Below are positions 3,765-17,997 of a stretch of DNA of 29,595 nucleotides, one piece after another. Each line of letters opens with the position of its first letter. Position 1 is the first letter of the stretch. The position numbers were made by a program, and so were the translations under genes. A model generated the notes under the pieces. The model did not search any database. It saw nothing but the letters and a program-made list of their open reading frames with translations, and was not told where the DNA came from. Origin of the DNA: a virus; IMG/VR virus record IMGVR_UViG_3300024262_000176, positions 1 to 29,595 of that record; one strand, 5' to 3'.

Positions 3765-3953
3765 ATGAATAAGCAACTGTTTAGGTTTAGATGTAAGAAA
3801 TGTGGCGGTATTATAGGTGTGAATATAGAAGGTAAGCCTATATGCGGTTGCAGCGTCTGGCCCGGCAATACAGTAGATTATGATACTGGTTGGTCAAAAG
3901 AGTGCCAAGATAAGTTAGGTGATACTACTAATGTTAAGTTAGGGAAACCATAA
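3765..3953 (+). CDS. Small Cys-rich (zinc-ribbon-like) protein, 62 aa
   Basis: Contains CKKC (C10/C13) and CGC (C27/C29) around a short hairpin, a minimal zinc-ribbon arrangement, followed by a polar tail with one further Cys. The start is 2 bases after the previous stop with AAAGGA upstream, and the stop overlaps the next ATG (TAATG), so it sits inside a translationally coupled chain. The function is not recognisable. Confidence 0.55.
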   Translation: MNKQLFRFRCKKCGGIIGVNIEGKPICGCSVWPGNTVDYDTGWSKECQDKLGDTTNVKLGKP

Positions 3954-4854: not shown

Positions 4855-4883
4855 AATAAACTTAGATATTGAAAGGAAAAGAA

Positions 4884-5270: not shown

Positions 5271-6092
5271 ATGCCTAACCCAAATAGAGGTTCGGGAGTA
5301 CGTGCTAGTATACTTAGAGACAGTATACCTGAATCTGTTAAATCTAAAGCAGCACCAAAGAAAAAGACTAAGCGTTATGTATCCAAAGATGGTTTTGAAA
5401 CTGTTAGACTTGTACGTGGATTTTCTATGATACGACCACTGTGGTCTGTGATACAGGAAGTTAGTGATAGGTCTAAAAAAGAATGTTTTATATGTGGTGG
5501 TTATGCTCGTTGGTGTGCGTCACCTAAGTATAATCCAGCAATACCAAAGGATTTAGATATATATTGTGAAGATACTAAGACGTTTGATATATTAGTATCT
5601 GAGTTATATGGATTAGGACTAAGAGTAGAGCATGATGGTGATATGGCTCTTACGTTTGCACATCCTACTAAGGGTGAGTTCCATACTATACCCCCCATAC
5701 AGGTTATTAAACCTATGAAGAAGGGAGCAGTAGTAACTGATGGTGGTGTAATAAACGTATTATCTAACTTTGATTTTACTATTGTACGTGCGGCAATCTC
5801 AACACCTACACAGGTATTAGTAGATGCTGATTTTCTACATGATGAAGTAAGTAATGTGTTACGTCTAAAGAATATACATTGTCCAGTTAGTTCTTTATTG
5901 CGATGTATAAAGTATACTAATAAAGGCTATTGGTTATCTCCTGTAGAATCCTTAAAGTTATTTGAGGATTGGATGAATAGGCCACAATCATATCGTGATA
6001 AGATAACAGGACTCGTTACGAAGTTAACAGCAGACGGTGAGTTATCTAAAAAAGAAATAGAAGAGCTTGAAGCTTTGATGCGTATTGACTAG
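5271..6092 (+). CDS. Nucleotidyltransferase-fold protein
   Basis: Contains a Pol beta-type nucleotidyltransferase core: GGYARW (76-81, the glycine-rich nucleotide-binding turn), then DLDIY with D94/D96 as metal-binding acids, and NFDFTIVRAA (166-175) supplying the probable third Asp (D168). The N-terminal 50 residues are basic and probably disordered (KSKAAPKKKTKR), consistent with RNA or DNA contact. The C-terminus is helical and charged (ELSKKEIEELEALMRID). Proteins of this shape occur in many tailed phages and are annotated as putative nucleotidyltransferases; their targets (tRNA ends, proteins or nucleotides) are mostly undetermined. It has a good Shine-Dalgarno (AGGAG) and sits between SSB and the helicase. 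Confidence 0.65.
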   Translation: MPNPNRGSGVRASILRDSIPESVKSKAAPKKKTKRYVSKDGFETVRLVRGFSMIRPLWSVIQEVSDRSKKECFICGGYARWCASPKYNPAIPKDLDIYCEDTKTFDILVSELYGLGLRVEHDGDMALTFAHPTKGEFHTIPPIQVIKPMKKGAVVTDGGVINVLSNFDFTIVRAAISTPTQVLVDADFLHDEVSNVLRLKNIHCPVSSLLRCIKYTNKGYWLSPVESLKLFEDWMNRPQSYRDKITGLVTKLTADGELSKKEIEELEALMRID

Positions 6093-6101
6093 GAGATACT
6101 A

Positions 6102-7001
6102 ATGCTCTACACAAACGAACGTAAATTATGTAAGCTACAAGATCGTTTGCCCACTGTTATATCTGATATAGGTAAACCAGATATGAGTATCCCAACAGGT
6201 ATAGCTTCATTAGATGATAAGATGAATGGGTTATATCCCAGTGATTTAATTGTTATTGGTGGTCGTCCGTCGATGGGTAAATCTTCTTTGTTAACTGACA
6301 TAGCATTATACATCAGTCGTAACAGACACGTGCTTATATTTAGTTTAGAAATGACTGCGTATAATTTAACACAACGTATGCTATGCAACTTAGCTGGCGT
6401 TAGTTTATTTAAGTTACGTAAGAATACTCTAACTGAACGTGAACTATGTGATATTAATAATACGTCCAAAGTATTATACAAGCCTGATAACTATAATATA
6501 TCTATTGATGAGACAACAAGGATAACACCGGATGATATGGAAGAAACTATAAGTATGCTTAATGACTCTGGTGACAAAGTTGATTGTGTACTTATTGATT
6601 ACATACAGTTGATGGGCCTACGTAGTTCATGTGAGAATAGAAACCAAGAGCTATCAGTTATATCAAGACAGCTTAAAGCAATAGCTAATAAGTTTGGTAT
6701 ACCTGTTGTAGTTCTATCTCAGTTAAATAGAAGTGTAGAGTATAGAGAAAACAGACGACCACTAATGAGTGACTTACGTGACTGTGGTTCTATTGAACAA
6801 GATGCAGATGTAGTTTTATTATTGTATCGAGAAGGGTATTATACTAGAGTTAATAACCCAGACGCTATTGATAACGGGACAGCAGAAATGATATTAACTA
6901 AGGTAAGAAATGGTGCTACTGGGATAGCTGTAGCTACATGGGATGCAGAAGGGATGAGTTTTAATCCGAGACTCAGATTAAATATGGAGGATAACTTTTG
7001 A
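6102..7001 (+). CDS. Replicative DNA helicase, DnaB type (RecA-like domain only)
   Basis: Ring helicase that unwinds DNA 5' to 3' at the fork. Motifs: Walker A GGRPSMGKSS (53-62), catalytic Glu in SLEM (E83), Walker B VLIDYIQL (163-170), the H3 segment SQLNRSVE (206-213), and DLRDCGSIEQDADVVL (224-239), with a KVRNG-type arginine-finger region near 272. At 299 aa it lacks the ~150-residue N-terminal domain of bacterial DnaB that binds primase, keeping only a short leader (1-25). It must therefore contact its primase (gene at 8245) differently, as several compact phage helicases do. AGGAG lies upstream of the ATG. The end overlaps the HNH endonuclease start. Confidence 0.9.
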   Translation: MLYTNERKLCKLQDRLPTVISDIGKPDMSIPTGIASLDDKMNGLYPSDLIVIGGRPSMGKSSLLTDIALYISRNRHVLIFSLEMTAYNLTQRMLCNLAGVSLFKLRKNTLTERELCDINNTSKVLYKPDNYNISIDETTRITPDDMEETISMLNDSGDKVDCVLIDYIQLMGLRSSCENRNQELSVISRQLKAIANKFGIPVVVLSQLNRSVEYRENRRPLMSDLRDCGSIEQDADVVLLLYREGYYTRVNNPDAIDNGTAEMILTKVRNGATGIAVATWDAEGMSFNPRLRLNMEDNF

Positions 7002-7489
7002 AAAGATATAAAGATTATAATTATTTTATTACTAAGAGCGGGTTAGTATGGTCAGGATTTACTAATAAATGGCTGAGTCCTTTTTCTAATAGAGATGGTT
7101 ACGCAGAGATATCTTTAAGCAAAGAAGGTAAACAACAAACTCGTTTAGTACACAGATTAGTTTTAGAGGCGTTTGTTGGGCCATGTCCAAATGGTAAAGT
7201 GTGTAGGCATTTAGATGGTAATCCTGCAAATAATAATTTGAGTAATATATGTTGGGATACCCAAAGTAATAACTTAAAAGATAAAGCTAAACATAATACT
7301 GTGCCTTGGGGCGAGACTTCCCCCAATCATAGGTTAGAGAAAGAAGAAGTCCAAGCTATTAGATATTTGTATTTGAAGTGTGGTTTAACCCAAAAAGATA
7401 TAGCTGATAGATACGATATTACACAATCGCACGTATCACGATTAGTAAATAAAAACTGTTGGTCACGACTAAGTTTAGGAGAATTTTAA
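6998..7489 (+). CDS. HNH homing endonuclease with C-terminal helix-turn-helix
   Basis: A free-standing mobile endonuclease. The HNH_3-type core spans about residues 48-95: VHRLV (H52), CRHLDGNPANNN (H71, N78-N80) and LSNICW. A short N-terminal segment (YFITKSGLVWSG) resembles NUMOD-type modules, and the C-terminus (LTQKDIADRYDITQSHVSRLV, about 130-150) is a helix-turn-helix for target recognition. Translation starts at TTG (6998), which overlaps the helicase stop as TTGA, with GGAGG 7 bases upstream. The element sits neatly between helicase and the next small gene without damaging either, as expected of an endonuclease that spreads into conserved replication loci. Confidence 0.8.
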   Translation: MKRYKDYNYFITKSGLVWSGFTNKWLSPFSNRDGYAEISLSKEGKQQTRLVHRLVLEAFVGPCPNGKVCRHLDGNPANNNLSNICWDTQSNNLKDKAKHNTVPWGETSPNHRLEKEEVQAIRYLYLKCGLTQKDIADRYDITQSHVSRLVNKNCWSRLSLGEF

Positions 7490-8244: not shown

Positions 8245-9075
8245 ATGAAACTACAGGATTTTAATATTGTTGATGAGTGTAATCATTATTACACAGCATT
8301 TTGTCCAATACATAATGATGTTAATACTCCTAACGTTACTATTACTAGGATTGGTAAGTATATAGGTCACTGGAAATGTTGGGCTTGTGGTGAAGAGGGC
8401 GTAGTTAGTGATATGGTATTACAAGGTATCAACAAAACTATCATACATAAACCTAAACAGAGAGTTGGTATAAATTGGAAATCTCTGAATAGGTATTATA
8501 TAAATAAAGGTAAGCTAAATAGCAGTAAGTTATTAGAGTTGGCAGATAGTTTAGACCTACCTTTGTGGACGCTTGTTCAGCTTGGTTTAGGTTATGATGG
8601 TAAAGCTTATACTTTTCCTGTACATAATGAGGATGGGGAGATTATTGGTATCGCCCTAAGATTTCCTGATGGTAGTAAGCGAATGGTTAGAGGTAGTGAA
8701 GTAGGTATATACTTAGGTAGCAATGTGTTAGATGTATCATGGGCTAGAATTAGGAATAGGTTAGTAATATGTGAAGGGGCTACTGACTTAGCTACTATGC
8801 TGCGTATATATTCAACTGCTATAGGAATGTTTAATAATGAAACTCCAATAGAGATAGTATATAATTATATATTAAAACATAAACCAGCCGAAACTATTAT
8901 ATTTCCAGACGGGGATACGCCGGGTGTAAACGGTGCTAATAAACTAGCACGTAGAATAATGGATATCACTCATGTAAAAGTTTTCCCTATGCTTGCTGGA
9001 TATGATGTAAGGAAGTACTTTGCTGAGAAAGATAGAGAAGCAGTCTCATATATTTTAGAGTGTATACATGCCTAA
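8245..9075 (+). CDS. DNA primase (CHC2-like zinc finger plus TOPRIM)
   Basis: Synthesises RNA primers for the fork. The N-terminal zinc finger is C20-P-I-H23 with C45-W-A-C48, the order found in DnaG-type primases. The TOPRIM domain follows, with the catalytic Glu in VICEGATD (E177) and the metal-binding D-x-D in IIFPDGD (D222/D224), then the usual GVNGANKLARRI helix. At 276 aa it is compact, with a shortened RNA-polymerase core and no obvious DnaB-binding C-terminus. This fits a helicase that lacks the primase-binding domain. Its end overlaps the endonuclease VII gene by 8 bases. Confidence 0.85.
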   Translation: MKLQDFNIVDECNHYYTAFCPIHNDVNTPNVTITRIGKYIGHWKCWACGEEGVVSDMVLQGINKTIIHKPKQRVGINWKSLNRYYINKGKLNSSKLLELADSLDLPLWTLVQLGLGYDGKAYTFPVHNEDGEIIGIALRFPDGSKRMVRGSEVGIYLGSNVLDVSWARIRNRLVICEGATDLATMLRIYSTAIGMFNNETPIEIVYNYILKHKPAETIIFPDGDTPGVNGANKLARRIMDITHVKVFPMLAGYDVRKYFAEKDREAVSYILECIHA

Positions 9076-9409
9076 GAAAAAACAATCAGCAGAAGAATTA
9101 AAACGTAAGAAACGTGTTAGACACTACCGAAATGCTTATGGCATATCTATAGAAACCTATAATAAATTATTAAAGTCACAGAAGTATAGGTGTGCTATAT
9201 GTAACAAACCTAATCTACCCACTGACCAGCACTTTGATATTGATCACAACCATAAAACAGGTCATGTTAGAGGGCTGCTATGTGGTTATTGTAACCGTAG
9301 TATTTTACGCTTTTTCCGTGACAATAAAGTTATTGCTGAGGGATTGGTTAAGTATTTATCAAGAGCATTAAAGGAAGATAAGTTGTGGAAAAAGAACGTG
9401 CGTTGGTGA
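9068..9409 (+). CDS. Endonuclease VII-like Holliday junction resolvase
   Basis: A His-Me finger nuclease of the phage T4 gp49 (recombination endonuclease VII) type, which resolves branched DNA before packaging. The signature elements are C42-A-I-C45, the catalytic DIDHNHKTGHVRGLLC block (57-72) with H60 and H62, and C72-G-Y-C75-N76 completing the structural zinc site. The N-terminus is strongly basic (KKK, KRKKRVRHYRNAYG) for DNA binding. At 113 aa it is the short form without T4's extra C-terminal dimerisation helices. It starts inside the primase end with a weak Shine-Dalgarno, so it is probably translationally coupled. Confidence 0.9.
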   Translation: MPKKKQSAEELKRKKRVRHYRNAYGISIETYNKLLKSQKYRCAICNKPNLPTDQHFDIDHNHKTGHVRGLLCGYCNRSILRFFRDNKVIAEGLVKYLSRALKEDKLWKKNVRW

Positions 9410-11058: not shown

Positions 11059-11499
11059 ATGAATGTTAAAGATGGTAATCCAAAAGATATGCTGGGTTCA
11101 GCTAAAGCATATACCCATCTTATTCCTACTGCTCCATTATATGAAGTAGGACTAGCTATGTTTGAAGGTGCAAGAAAGTATGGGGCACACAACTACCGAG
11201 CTATCGGTACTCGTGCTACTGTATACTATAATGCAGCTAGACGACACATGGATGCATGGTTAGAAGGTGAGGATATAGACCCCGATAGTGGTATTCATCA
11301 TCTGATGAAAGCGGTAGCATGTTTTATGGTGCTTAGAGATTCAATGATTATGGGTAACTTCGAAGATGATCGACCGCTACGTTATGCTGATGGGTTCTCT
11401 ATTGAGAAGTTTAATAAATTAACTGAGGATATAATAAATAAGTATCCTGAATGTGTTGAACCGTTTACTGAAGTTAATTCAAAAAAGGAGCAAAGTTGA
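11059..11499 (+). CDS. dATP/dGTP diphosphohydrolase-like protein
   Basis: Carries the pattern of the phage dATP/dGTP diphosphohydrolase N-terminal family (DUF5664-type): GNPKDMLG and the L-I-P start, KYGAHNYR (about 41-48), RHMDAWLEGEDIDPDSGIHHL (71-91; in sequence H72, E80, D84, H89/H90) and a following AVACFMVLRDS helix. These His, Glu and Asp residues probably bind metals. Family members remove pyrophosphate from purine deoxynucleotides, and in some phages this supports altered DNA composition. The gene ends TTGA, overlapping the TTG start of the LAGLIDADG element. Confidence 0.75.
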   Translation: MNVKDGNPKDMLGSAKAYTHLIPTAPLYEVGLAMFEGARKYGAHNYRAIGTRATVYYNAARRHMDAWLEGEDIDPDSGIHHLMKAVACFMVLRDSMIMGNFEDDRPLRYADGFSIEKFNKLTEDIINKYPECVEPFTEVNSKKEQS

Positions 11500-11891
11500 A
11501 AGATAACATACCATCATGGGAATATGTTGCAGGTTTTTATGATGGGGAAGGTTGTTTTAGAGTTTATCCATATAAGAATACAAATTCTAATGGACATATA
11601 TATACAGGAGAACGTCCGTTTGTTGTTGTATCACAGGTTAAAGATAACAATAAAGTTTTACATCTTATTTCCAATAAATTTAAGGACTATGATATAAAAC
11701 ATTCTTTTTACGAAGATAAGTATAAAGAGTATAAACATATTGGGCGACCTATGTCAGTTATTCAAATAACGGATAGACGAAGCTGCAAAGTTTTTATAGA
11801 GTATGTTCTTCCTTTTCTTATAATAAAAAAAGAGGAAGCTAAAATAGTTTTAACTTTTTGTAGGAGAAAATTAAAATCAAAGCGTACATGA
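11496..11891 (+). CDS. LAGLIDADG homing endonuclease, single-motif type
   Basis: One LAGLIDADG motif is visible as WEYVAGFYDGEGCF (8-21), with D16 and E18 as likely catalytic acids, followed by the beta strands (FVVVSQVKDN, MSVIQITDRRSC) and a helix of the saddle-shaped fold. With 131 aa and one motif it should work as a homodimer. Translation starts at TTG (11496) overlapping the upstream stop as TTGA, with AAGGAG about 9 bases before. It ends ATGA with the next gene. The pentamer CAAAG occurs just before its start (11491-11495) and near its end (11878-11882). The gene appears inserted between two nucleotide-pool genes. Confidence 0.8.
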   Translation: MKDNIPSWEYVAGFYDGEGCFRVYPYKNTNSNGHIYTGERPFVVVSQVKDNNKVLHLISNKFKDYDIKHSFYEDKYKEYKHIGRPMSVIQITDRRSCKVFIEYVLPFLIIKKEEAKIVLTFCRRKLKSKRT

Positions 11892-12289
11892 GCCATTCTA
11901 TACGTGGTCGAGCCGGTAATGCTGCGACAGGTGAGGACATGCTAGCTAATAATAAGAAAGCTATTGAAGTTGGTGTTGAGCTACGTAGATTATGTCCCGG
12001 ACTAAGGTTATATATTCCTGCCGAAATGGATTTCTTTTTACAAGACAAAGGTATTGAACCTATTGAGATAGGAGAAAAAGTTATCCTTGCTCTGGACTGT
12101 AAGATTCTAGAACAGTGTGATACACTATTAGTATACACAGGCCCAGATGATTATGTAAGTGGTGGTATGCAAATAGAAATTAATCATGCACCAGTAGATT
12201 GTATGCAGATTTTCTATTTTGATGAAGTAACACATGGAGTTGTGAAGATTATAAATTCTTTAATTAAAGGTAATGATAAGGAGAACTAA
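11888..12289 (+). CDS. Nucleoside 2-deoxyribosyltransferase-like (DUF4406-type) protein
   Basis: An alpha/beta protein of the nucleoside deoxyribosyltransferase/DUF4406 type: SHSIRG (2-7) at the substrate loop, EDMLANNKKAIEVGVELRR helix, LRLYIPAEMDF, then LALDCKILEQCDTLLVY (about 67-83) and the family's SGGMQIEINHA (about 90-100). Known relatives exchange bases on deoxyribonucleosides or hydrolyse nucleotides; here it probably belongs with the pool genes beside it. The ATG at 11888 cuts into the expected first strand: the frame upstream reads K-A-Y before M, and ATC at 11876 lies 9 bases after AGGAG. Either start is possible; the ATG has poor Shine-Dalgarno spacing because of the inserted LAGLIDADG gene. 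Confidence 0.6.
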   Translation: MSHSIRGRAGNAATGEDMLANNKKAIEVGVELRRLCPGLRLYIPAEMDFFLQDKGIEPIEIGEKVILALDCKILEQCDTLLVYTGPDDYVSGGMQIEINHAPVDCMQIFYFDEVTHGVVKIINSLIKGNDKEN

Positions 12290-12984
12290 TGAGTAACATT
12301 TTAGTATCAGGTGATCTTCATTGTCCTTGGCAGCGTGCTGGTTATTTACAATTTCTAATAGATTTATACTATCAATGGAATTGTGATGAGGTTATATTTA
12401 TTGGAGACGTAGTAGATATGCACGCGGTATCCTTCTTTAATACAGACCCCGGTTGCCCCAGCGGTTTAGAAGAATACATTAGAACCAAGGAAGCAGTAGC
12501 TAAGTTTTATAAAGCGTTTCCTAAAGCAACAGTTGTATTAGGTAATCATGATAAACGTGTAGTTAGAAAAGCCAGAAGTGCTGATATACATGAAGTCTTT
12601 ATTAAGTCCTATGCTGATATTTGGGAAACGCCGGGATGGGATTGGGTTGAAGATTGTATACGTGATGATATTTATTTTTATCACGGAGACGGGCAGGGTG
12701 GAGAATATCCTGCTGCTAATGCCGTAAGAAAAATGTTGATGTCAGTTGTAATGGGACATAATCACACTGCATCAGGTATAAAATATTATAGCAACCCTAC
12801 GCAAAGGTTCTTTGCACTTGATACAGGAGCAGGTTGTGATGATAGGGCATTAGCGTTTGCTTACGCTGGTAATAATAAACGTAAGAGTGTATTGAGTGCT
12901 GCTGTTATTATTGACGGTACGCCTTATCTTGAACCTATGTTGTGTGGTAAGGGAGAACCATATTGGGATGGTAATTTCAAATAA
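12289..12984 (+). CDS. Calcineurin-like metallophosphoesterase (second copy type)
   Basis: All five dimetal phosphoesterase motifs are present: GDLH (D9/H11), GDVVD (D40), GNHD (N86/H87/D88), YHGD (H132) and GHNH (H157/H159). At 231 aa it is unlike the smaller enzyme at 3953, and the two are not recent duplicates. It lies immediately upstream of the polymerase with one-base overlaps (TAATG) on both sides, so it may act on DNA ends or on nucleotides in replication. AAGGAG precedes the ATG. Its substrate cannot be read from sequence. Confidence 0.85.
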   Translation: MSNILVSGDLHCPWQRAGYLQFLIDLYYQWNCDEVIFIGDVVDMHAVSFFNTDPGCPSGLEEYIRTKEAVAKFYKAFPKATVVLGNHDKRVVRKARSADIHEVFIKSYADIWETPGWDWVEDCIRDDIYFYHGDGQGGEYPAANAVRKMLMSVVMGHNHTASGIKYYSNPTQRFFALDTGAGCDDRALAFAYAGNNKRKSVLSAAVIIDGTPYLEPMLCGKGEPYWDGNFK

Positions 12985-14036
12985 TGGATAAACATATACT
13001 TACAAAATGGACAGAGTTTAGGGACTGGTGTAGGGGTGATATCTCTACACTAGCTCTGGACTTTGAGTGTACGAACGCCAGCTATCTTGGATTGCAGGTA
13101 GCTGGTTGGTCGGCATGTAATGGAGAATCACTATGCTATGTAGACGTATTAGATAACCCACAGTATCAGATATTATGTAATCAGTTAGCTCATATACTAC
13201 GTGATAAAGTTAAGTGTTTGATAATGCACAATGCCCCCTTCGATATGCGTATATTAAAACAACTAGACATACAACATACAGATAATATATTCTGTACTAT
13301 GACAGCAGCACACCTATTGAACGAGAACACACCTAAAGGTTTAAAGTGGCAGACAGTACACGTATTAAAACAAACACGTGAGACACTAAACTTTAGTGAT
13401 GCTATATCAGAGGGCTTTCATTCACGTAAATTCTATGAGTATGCTACTGATGATGCTGTTAATACATTTGATTTATATAAGCTTCAAGTTCCCCAATTAA
13501 AGAAACAGGAGTTATGGGATTTGTGGTATAATATAGAACGCCCGTTTCAGTATTGTCTAAGAGACTTGGCTATAAACGGCGTGTTAGTTGACAAAGTTAA
13601 CTTGGTTGCTGCACAAGAGCAGACTACTCAAGATGTTAATGAGTTAGAGATAGAAATGTATAAGTCTGCTGGCGTTAGTTATTATACACAGATGTTATTA
13701 GACGGGGGTTACGAAATTATCCCAAAGGTCAACTTGAACAGCCCACTACAACTTATTGATTTGTTACAACATCTTGGTGTTACATTAAAAGAAACAACAG
13801 ATGGTGGACAGTTAAGTACTAAAGAAGCTGTATTAGTATCAGTTAGACGTCAGCATCCGTTTGTAGGGTTGTTGTTAAAGTATCGTACTATTAGTAAAAT
13901 GCTTAATGGATTTCTTATACCACTACCTAAGTTTATACAAGCAGATAGTAGGATACGTGGTTCGTTTCACAATTGCGTGGCAGTAACTGGTAGGTTATCG
14001 TGTACTAAACCTAGTTTACAATGTTTACCTAAATAG
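12984..14036 (+). CDS. Family A DNA polymerase, N-terminal part (3'-5' exonuclease and thumb)
   Basis: First half of a split replicative polymerase. The proofreading exonuclease has Exo I D26-F-E28, Exo II N83 with F86-D87 and Exo III Y153-x-x-D156, so all catalytic residues are intact. The thumb follows, including NLNSPLQL (250-257) and the template-contacting TGRLSCTKPSLQCLPK end (335-350), which in ordinary PolA proteins runs straight on into motif A. The gene stops with TAG at 14034-14036, and the rest of the polymerase starts 11 bases later in another frame. The product should associate with the palm/fingers protein to form an active enzyme. Confidence 0.85.
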   Translation: MDKHILTKWTEFRDWCRGDISTLALDFECTNASYLGLQVAGWSACNGESLCYVDVLDNPQYQILCNQLAHILRDKVKCLIMHNAPFDMRILKQLDIQHTDNIFCTMTAAHLLNENTPKGLKWQTVHVLKQTRETLNFSDAISEGFHSRKFYEYATDDAVNTFDLYKLQVPQLKKQELWDLWYNIERPFQYCLRDLAINGVLVDKVNLVAAQEQTTQDVNELEIEMYKSAGVSYYTQMLLDGGYEIIPKVNLNSPLQLIDLLQHLGVTLKETTDGGQLSTKEAVLVSVRRQHPFVGLLLKYRTISKMLNGFLIPLPKFIQADSRIRGSFHNCVAVTGRLSCTKPSLQCLPK

Positions 14037-14046
14037 GAAATTAAAT

Positions 14047-14814
14047 ATGGCTAAGGTAGATGTAAGATCATTTATAATAGCACCTGATGGTAAGGTATTA
14101 CTCTGTGCTGATTATGCTGGACAGGAGCTACGTGTATTGGCACACGTGGCTCAAGAGCCAACAATGATAGCGGCGTTCTTAAAGAACCAAGATGTACATT
14201 TGCTCTTAGCTAATGACTTCTATGACTTGAATACTCCAGAAGAATATATTACCACTACTCATTCAGAGTATAACAGTACCAAGACTAAGTTTAAGCAACA
14301 GCGTAATGATATCAAAACTGTTAACTTTGGGCTAGCTTATGGAAAGACTAAGTATGGGTTCGCTGCTGATTGGGGTTGGTCTGTGCCCAAAGCTGAACAA
14401 TTCATAGCAAAATACTTTGAGCGTTTTCCTCAGATTAAAACAGCTATTGATAAATGTAATGAGCTAGTTAAGAAACAAAAAGCTATACGTAACCTAACTG
14501 GACGTATACGTAGGTTCGACCATGTAGATGATAGGGTGTTACGGCAGGCATTTAATTTCTGTATTCAGGGTGCGTCTGCGGATATGGTAAAGAAGGCTGC
14601 GGGCGATACTTATAAGCTATGCCAGCTACGTCCTGAGTGGGACTGTAAATTAGTATTAAGTGTACATGACGAGTTAGTGTATGAAGTTAACGATGAGTAC
14701 AAAGATATAGCATTAGCTGAAATTAAGTACACTATGGAACACGCTGTTGAGTTGTGTGTTCCTATGATAGTGGATATAAATTATGGTTTAAATTATTCAA
14801 TAGCCAAGGGCTAA
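14047..14814 (+). CDS. Family A DNA polymerase, C-terminal part (palm and fingers)
   Basis: Second half of the polymerase. Motif A is DYAGQELRVLAH (D22), motif B RNDIKTVNFGLAYG (R86, K90, F94, Y98, G99) and motif C VHDE (207-210; D208 catalytic), all intact. TGRIRRF (151-157) is also conserved. It has its own ATG with AGGAAA 6 bases upstream. The frame is shifted +1 from the N-terminal part, and joining them directly would add about eight residues (NRKLNMAK) not expected at that point. That favours two real genes rather than a sequencing slip. F94 at the ddNTP-discriminating position is the common Phe form. Confidence 0.85.
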   Translation: MAKVDVRSFIIAPDGKVLLCADYAGQELRVLAHVAQEPTMIAAFLKNQDVHLLLANDFYDLNTPEEYITTTHSEYNSTKTKFKQQRNDIKTVNFGLAYGKTKYGFAADWGWSVPKAEQFIAKYFERFPQIKTAIDKCNELVKKQKAIRNLTGRIRRFDHVDDRVLRQAFNFCIQGASADMVKKAAGDTYKLCQLRPEWDCKLVLSVHDELVYEVNDEYKDIALAEIKYTMEHAVELCVPMIVDINYGLNYSIAKG

Positions 14815-17451: not shown

Positions 17452-17997
17452 ATGAGAAAAAAGAGACCTAAATTATCAGAAGTAATAAAGAGCTATGGTA
17501 TGCGTGGATACAACGGCCTAAGTATTAAAGATATATATAGCGTGGAGGATAATACTGCCAGACCTATACAGGCTGATATAATTATAGGGATGGGAAATGG
17601 TGCAAGAAAATATAACGTCCATAAAATGCAGCACAATACTAAATTGTGTGAAGTAGAGGTTATTGAACTAGTACCATATTACCTACAAAAAACTATTCCA
17701 GCTAGTACAGATTTGAGTTGGCATGGGTGGGTATACGGCGGAGAGCCTACACCTACTAATGATTATGATACTGCTGAATGGCGTAAACTTAGAACAACAG
17801 TACTTAAACGAGATAAACATAAATGTCAGGAATGTGGTACAAATAAATGTCTTACTGTTCATCACGTTAAACCAAGACAAGGCGGTGGTAAAAATGAAGC
17901 TAGGAATCTAATTACCTTATGTAGTAAATGCCATGATTTAATCGAAGTGGGGCTATCTGAGGCCTTAAATGAAAACAGTGATGGGCAGGACGAATAA
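17452..17997 (+). CDS. HNH endonuclease, 181 aa
   Basis: The C-terminal domain (about 105-165) is a classic HNH nuclease: WRKLRTTVLKRDKHKCQEC (C125/C128), LTVHHVKPRQGGGKN (H137/H138), NLITLC (N152) and CSKCH (C157/C160/H161). The N-terminal 100 residues (SEVIKSYGMRGYNGLSIKDIY, then a GMGNGARKYNVHK loop) are a separate uncharacterised module. It could be a homing-type nuclease or a packaging-associated HNH protein; its place at the end of the early block, next to a hairpin, is compatible with a mobile gene. Confidence 0.8.
   Translation: MRKKRPKLSEVIKSYGMRGYNGLSIKDIYSVEDNTARPIQADIIIGMGNGARKYNVHKMQHNTKLCEVEVIELVPYYLQKTIPASTDLSWHGWVYGGEPTPTNDYDTAEWRKLRTTVLKRDKHKCQECGTNKCLTVHHVKPRQGGGKNEARNLITLCSKCHDLIEVGLSEALNENSDGQDE

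Follow-up and report, generated by a model that had tools for sequence, protein, structure and literature searches.

A family A DNA polymerase gene split in the thumb-to-palm loop of a virus and of two relatives, and a putative two-chain PolA

Split genes for PolA, PolB and NrdA are already known from phages. For PolA, the OM43 phages MEP401 and MEP402 (Zobellviridae) carry the gene as two ORFs separated by a small one, as do most group I genomes, and their authors considered an intron, according to the parts of the paper that deal with this gene (PMC10580990). In the open-access literature searched, as far as the retrieved parts of the papers go, this is the only split PolA that its finders did not tie to an HNH gene, and the passages of PMC11348598 and PMC6302109 covered by a search for the word “split” hold no account of split PolA genes. 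In the Vibrio phages JA1 and VchO139-I, HNH genes split several genes including that of the DNAP, and introns were suggested (PMC3670811, passage on these genes). For family B, the section of PMC2988022 on the T4-like Aeromonas phages 25 and 44RR describes gene 43 as split into 43A and 43B, with the cause left unsure; the gap holds a homing gene in one phage and only untranslated sequence in the other, and 43A and 43B of phage 25 co-purify with polymerase activity. The same section reports nrdA of phage Aeh1, which is split by the homing gene mobE and whose split products are active together, and the T4 topoisomerase as a further phage gene split by homing-gene insertion (PMC2988022). Split PolIII and PolB are described in parts of PMC7824862 and PMC6892783. 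In the Bacillus phage Moonbeam, polA is annotated in three parts with homing genes, and a group I intron match stays below the threshold (29.1 bits, gathering cut-off 50).

The window, i.e. the whole stretch of 29,595 bases that was analysed, is a virus record with a phage-type replication block on the plus strand, in which two adjacent genes encode the polymerase. The upstream gene polA-N (12984..14036, plus strand) encodes 350 aa with the 3'-5' exonuclease, the thumb and the first part of the palm; the thumb runs as far as TGRLSCTKPSLQCLPK (...SLQCLPK, then TAG), so that the protein ends in LQCLPK. The downstream gene polA-C (14047..14814, plus strand) encodes 255 aa with the palm and the fingers including motifs A, B and C, and its first residues are MAKVDVRSFIIAP (MAKVDVRSFI). 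The two proteins match consecutive parts of the same profiles, namely positions 656-987 and 995-1230 of phrog_17, and in Pfam DNA_pol_A_exo1 together with positions 28-132 of DNA_pol_A for polA-N and positions 140-379 of the 381 positions of DNA_pol_A for polA-C. When aligned with PDB sequences, the end of polA-N corresponds to ...LQNIP of Klenow (1d9d chain position 357), and polA-C resumes at Klenow chain position 366, nine positions past the end of polA-N. Reading by eye revealed DFE, NAPFD and YATDD, which we take to be the exo motifs, together with TGR in polA-N, and CADYAGQELR, R..K...FG.AYG and VHDEL in polA-C, which we take to be motif A, the O-helix residues and motif C, respectively. 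As both domains, the exo motifs and motifs A, B and C are present, the window pair has the features of a family A polymerase with 3'-5' exonuclease, and it is confirmed that polA-N and polA-C are two parts of one such enzyme. The ORFs, the Pfam matches and the PDB alignments bear out the first-pass annotation, which had described a PolA split between the thumb and motif A, with motifs in both halves, a polA-N ending at LQCLPK-TAG and a separate polA-C in the +1 frame; the spacer between the stop and the ATG measures 10 nt (14037-14046).

The locus shares with MEP401 the division into an exonuclease with the N-terminal part of PolA and a C-terminal part of PolA, split between the thumb and motif A. 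However, MEP401 is cut roughly 12-16 residues beyond this point (SRYGE / MILNADAKALE; by eye), with a 77-aa ORF without assigned function in the cut, and only 2 of the 35 window proteins, neither of them a polymerase half, find a match in the first 16 kb of MEP401. An assignment of the window to the MEP401 type was rejected because cut position, small ORF and lineage differ, the last as judged from these first 16 kb. Gene 43A/43B resembles the window in that a replicative polymerase is encoded in two adjacent genes, but it belongs to family B, and Aeh1 NrdA differs in being a ribonucleotide reductase with the homing gene still in place. In Moonbeam and Vibrio phage JA-1, homing genes break up polA in the conserved region that is also cut in the window, but the Moonbeam cut is at TG(R), upstream by about a dozen residues, and that of JA-1 is inside motif A; an intron would not fit into the window junction. 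In MEP401 (L024, 6111-8221), Moonbeam (L020) and JA-1 (L106), polA is thus interrupted a dozen or so residues either side of the window cut, and this stretch of the gene looks like a hot spot for interruption. The profiles phrog_12241, phrog_9556 and phrog_2573 also end or start near the window cut; for phrog_2573, which the C-terminal parts of Moonbeam and JA-1 match, polymerases interrupted in other phages account at least partly for this boundary. New, as far as the open-access literature was searched, are the bare split with 10 nt, the exact loop in which it lies, and the set of intact, HNH-split, ORF-split and bare-split genes among related viruses.

At the junction (14034..14046, plus strand), the TAG stop of polA-N (14034-14036) is overlapped by an SD-like AGGA (14035-14038), which lies 8 nt before the ATG of polA-C. 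An SD match of at least 4 bases was found at 25 of the 29 scored plus-strand starts of the window, a chosen set from which ORFs with TTG starts are omitted and in which the start at 4881 is placed wrongly by a few bases and the match at 3953 lies at a poor distance. polA-N is one of the four starts without such a match and, as it lacks an SD of its own, its translation is probably coupled to that of the preceding metallophosphoesterase gene (12289..12984, plus strand), which ends on the first base of polA-N. The polA-C frame, which is shifted by +1 relative to polA-N, contains no stop over the 20 codons that precede its ATG (13987..14046, plus strand; stop-to-stop ORF 13987-14811) and overlaps the last 50 nt of polA-N, and this stretch is the only site where a frameshift could join the two genes. 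The profile match of the polA-C frame starts three codons before the ATG. Read across, the loop of the window would comprise about 10 residues from LPK to the next conserved R, compared with 8-9 residues in six intact relatives, and would therefore be only one to two residues longer. The first-pass annotation had counted about eight extra residues in a direct fusion and had argued that a single-base change would not give a typical protein, but neither the count nor the argument survives this comparison, and the near-normal loop keeps both a frameshift and an indel among the readings to be weighed. A programmed +1 frameshift near the TAG, giving one full-length polymerase and perhaps a short one in addition, would suit the 50-nt overlap and the read-across loop. 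However, no known +1 slip motif was seen by eye at the window junction, and the SD-like AGGA at the stop suits initiation at the ATG of polA-C, so that we consider such a frameshift unlikely.

As one frame change decides whether the halves are joined, and as intact relatives exist, a sequencing or assembly error also had to be considered as the origin of the split. The contig IMGVR_UViG_3300009149_000116 (37.7 kb; L001) is 99.94% identical to the window over 10,763 aligned positions and differs from it by 6 substitutions and one indel (window 11143), all of them outside the junction, which is identical in both. The two are differing assemblies, which does not imply that their samples are independent, and the same junction in a second contig that differs elsewhere makes a one-off assembly error unlikely; together with the two relatives described below, whose polA is split by whole ORFs, this leaves an error as the cause very improbable. 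The indel itself lies in a gene of the dATP/dGTP diphosphohydrolase family (11059-11499), where L001 is one base short and acquires a stop in its copy, and it represents either real variation or an assembly error.

Related viruses, among which the first-pass annotation had suggested looking for the same split or an intact gene, provided both. The N and C halves of L009 (3300024433_000030) are 54% and 56% identical to those of the window, respectively. Its N half ends in LQQLPK-TAA, so that the cut is at the same residue as in the window, and its C half begins with METFMDIDIRSCIIAP; the halves are in different frames, and the cut holds an ORF for an HNH endonuclease (up to 187 aa) that overlaps both of them, i.e. 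a homing endonuclease gene lies between the halves. In L097 (JAHPYZ010000033.1, binned as Lokiarchaeota), the N half ends in LQNLPRPGEF, cut in the same loop as in the window, and is followed by three small ORFs of 56, 52 and 60 aa and then by the C half; the 56- and 52-aa ORFs and the last 49 residues of the 60-aa ORF have no Pfam match. Since whole ORFs lie inside these cuts, no single frameshift could give one chain in L009 or L097. This also counts against a frameshift in the window, which is thus possible in the window alone. A homing endonuclease gene is absent between the window halves, which only the 10-nt spacer separates. A group I intron in the window polA was rejected, as this gap is too small and no Rfam intron match was obtained; Rfam gave no intron match in the window, L009 or L097 up to E = 1. 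A split intein was likewise rejected, judging from space, because polA-N stops one residue past LP and the conserved R follows directly on the first six residues of polA-C, which leaves no space for intein segments.

Intact polA genes were found in L014, L015, L027, L093, L094 and L096 (the match in L095 is the same as in L094), with 8-9 residues between LPK, LPS or, in L027, LRR and the conserved R, e.g. LPK-DNTGPLPL-R in L014. The intact polymerases of L014 and L015 have the same flanks as the window and are 45-54% identical to it per half. Such intact relatives had been named in the first-pass annotation as a result that would refute its reading, yet split relatives (L009, L097) exist as well, so their presence does not decide the matter. 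A single open frame across the loop is the rule: 60 of 68 viral loci, which include several near copies and do not count the known phages, are open, two are split (the window's twin and L009), four reach the contig edge and two have no match over motif A. A scan of genome contigs confirmed two loci, one split (L097) and one intact. In the phage collection, no relatives of the window were found at the DNA level, and at the protein level the C half matched 2,928 records and the N half 1,097, in every case with less than 60% identity. The numbers of the 35 window proteins that are matched are 17 in L009, 14 in L014, 13 in L094, 11 in L097, 5 in L015 and 3 in L093, and these shared proteins place the viruses L009, L014, L097 and L094 in a single broad lineage to which the window also belongs. 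For L027, of which the first 20 kb were covered, and for L096, matches are confined to the two polymerase halves, so that a relationship is shown for the polymerase only. Two of the contigs with relatives of the window polymerase are in archaeal bins, L097 as Lokiarchaeota and L096 (DYHK01000001.1) as Aenigmarchaeum. Because 11 of the 35 window proteins are matched in L097, this contig is a virus of the window lineage, which either has an archaeal host or was misbinned.

The AlphaFold2 model of the intact L014 polymerase (17 rows) has a mean pLDDT of 91.8 and a Klenow-like fold, with Bacillus Pol I as the best Foldseek hit in the PDB (TM 0.84 by query length, 28% identity). Its lowest 10-residue block, residues 341-350 with a pLDDT of 66, spans LPK and the beginning of the loop, and a cut in a loose, length-variable loop would be of the kind that two chains can tolerate. 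Divergence between the window and L009 at codon positions 1/2/3 is 0.41/0.31/0.58 in the N half and 0.39/0.24/0.51 in the C half, a pattern as would be expected if both halves are still selected as proteins, with the values averaging the time before and after the split. This pattern argues against a recently broken polymerase that is non-functional or complemented by the host, as do the motifs, all of which are intact, the identical split in two contigs and the split relatives. A one-base difference that breaks a gene does occur between the two contigs, at window 11143, and would suit such a decay; nevertheless, we regard a broken polymerase as highly unlikely.

With some confidence, we infer that the window polymerase is a two-chain PolA, separately translated and assembled non-covalently into a Klenow-like enzyme. 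Both chains would be made from one message, the upstream gene giving the exonuclease and thumb chain of 350 aa and the downstream gene the palm and fingers chain of 255 aa. Ribosomes would start the second chain at its own ATG from the SD-like site across the first stop, either re-initiating there or initiating afresh, and the chains would then join non-covalently to form an active Klenow-like polymerase. Non-covalent assembly appears possible because the cut sits in a loop of variable length that is poorly ordered in the L014 model. The open 20-codon frame upstream of polA-C and the near-normal loop also suit a frameshift to one chain or a one-base lesion, and the single open frame at 60 of the 68 viral loci likewise speaks against two chains. 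The two-chain polymerase is preferred for the window mainly because L009 and L097 show no other route to a working polymerase. The two-subunit PolA proposed in the first-pass annotation has therefore gained support from the second contig with the same junction and from the same-loop cuts of L009 and L097 with ORFs inside.

How the split arose is a separate question, and the two origins considered do not compete in probability with the two-chain polymerase. In one, insertion of a homing endonuclease into the loop divided the gene, and the later loss of this element left two genes behind. The HNH ORF at the same cut in L009 makes this plausible, and a gene of the same family is found elsewhere in the window, namely a free-standing HNH_3 endonuclease gene with HTH upstream of polA (6998..7489, plus strand), which is 36% identical to the HNH ORF splitting the L009 polA. 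However, no scar is visible at the window junction: a 14-column likeness (2 mismatches) to the 3' end of the L009 HNH was rejected as being at chance level, and the best junction match to the L009 HNH region scores 18, a value that 16% of random 24-mers drawn from the window and 6 of 27 other gene starts also attain. The first-pass annotation had counted three nuclease genes in the early block, and these are present upstream of polA (the HNH_3 gene, an endonuclease VII-like gene at 9068-9409 and a LAGLIDADG gene at 11496-11891), with a fourth, an HNH gene (17452-17997), downstream. All four belong to types that often occur as homing genes, and they are interspersed with the replication genes.

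The trees bear on the same origin. The polymerase tree (19 rows, junction columns removed) groups the window, L009 and L014 in one clade (96/95), without support for any particular order within it. A constraint of all three split rows to one clade was rejected (p-AU 0.003), whereas a clade of the window and L009 was not (p-AU 0.60), the tree constrained in this way scoring even higher, so that the polymerase tree alone would permit a common insertion. A second tree was built from seven genes shared by five contigs (L094 41% filled), namely the amidoligase-like, GATase-like, SSB, 5271-6092, DnaB, primase and Cas4-like exonuclease genes. Here L009 joins the intact L014 (100/99) and a clade of the window and L009 is rejected (p-AU 2.6e-5), so that an ancestral insertion would need a re-fusion in L014 or a transfer. 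The loss of a homing element, which the first-pass annotation had offered as a possible origin, hence keeps its plausibility through L009 but lacks a scar in the window and a matching grouping of the shared genes, and can be put forward only tentatively. Two of the genes adjoin each other in the window, the amidoligase-like gene (34-1257) and a glutamine-amidotransferase-like gene (1282-2241), and both are matched in L009, L014 and L097 and more weakly in MEP401.

In the other origin, a small indel in an intact gene created the stop, and the nearby SD-like AGGA and ATG rescued the second half. The 20 codons ahead of polA-C still hold no stop in its frame, the three codons by the ATG align to the intact loop region, and only 10 nt separate the genes. 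However, a matching stretch of three codons could be due to chance, and cuts of two relatives in the same loop with insertions are not what a random indel predicts, which leaves the indel a possible origin that we would not favour at even odds.

As the three split polymerases do not form one clade, there were either several splits, or a split followed by re-fusion or by transfer of an intact gene. The trees force at least two changes between split and intact, a count of changes and not of gains. In our judgement separate splits are likelier, because a re-fusion must restore the open loop exactly. The halves also differ in their trees, with the window joining L009 in the N-half tree (98/96) and L009 joining L014 in the C-half tree (78/93). 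Shared sites number 59 for the window with L009 and 60 for L009 with L014 in the N half, compared with 21 and 59 in the C half (Fisher p 0.0012), while AU tests on the conflict are not decisive (p 0.064 and 0.090). A reassortment of the halves exactly at the cut was rejected, given these AU tests and a change of signal along the protein roughly near residue 200 instead, with bins of both kinds before it. Residues 1-200 tend to join the window with L009, and residues 200-602 join L009 with L014. From these signals, a mosaic descent of the polymerase among the window, L009 and L014 is likely.

For the lineage as a whole, in which one member is binned with Lokiarchaeota, the balance is even on whether a single-chain PolA was turned more than once into an obligate two-chain enzyme, every split falling in the one thumb-to-palm loop, homing genes providing one of the routes and the split persisting where no homing gene is present. 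Intact, homing-gene-split, small-ORF-split and bare-split polA genes in one set of viruses form a natural series from a single chain to a heterodimer, and this series allows one to ask whether selfish genes drive the formation of heterodimers. If the halves do assemble, family A polymerases could readily be cut in this loop to make conditional or exchangeable versions of them.
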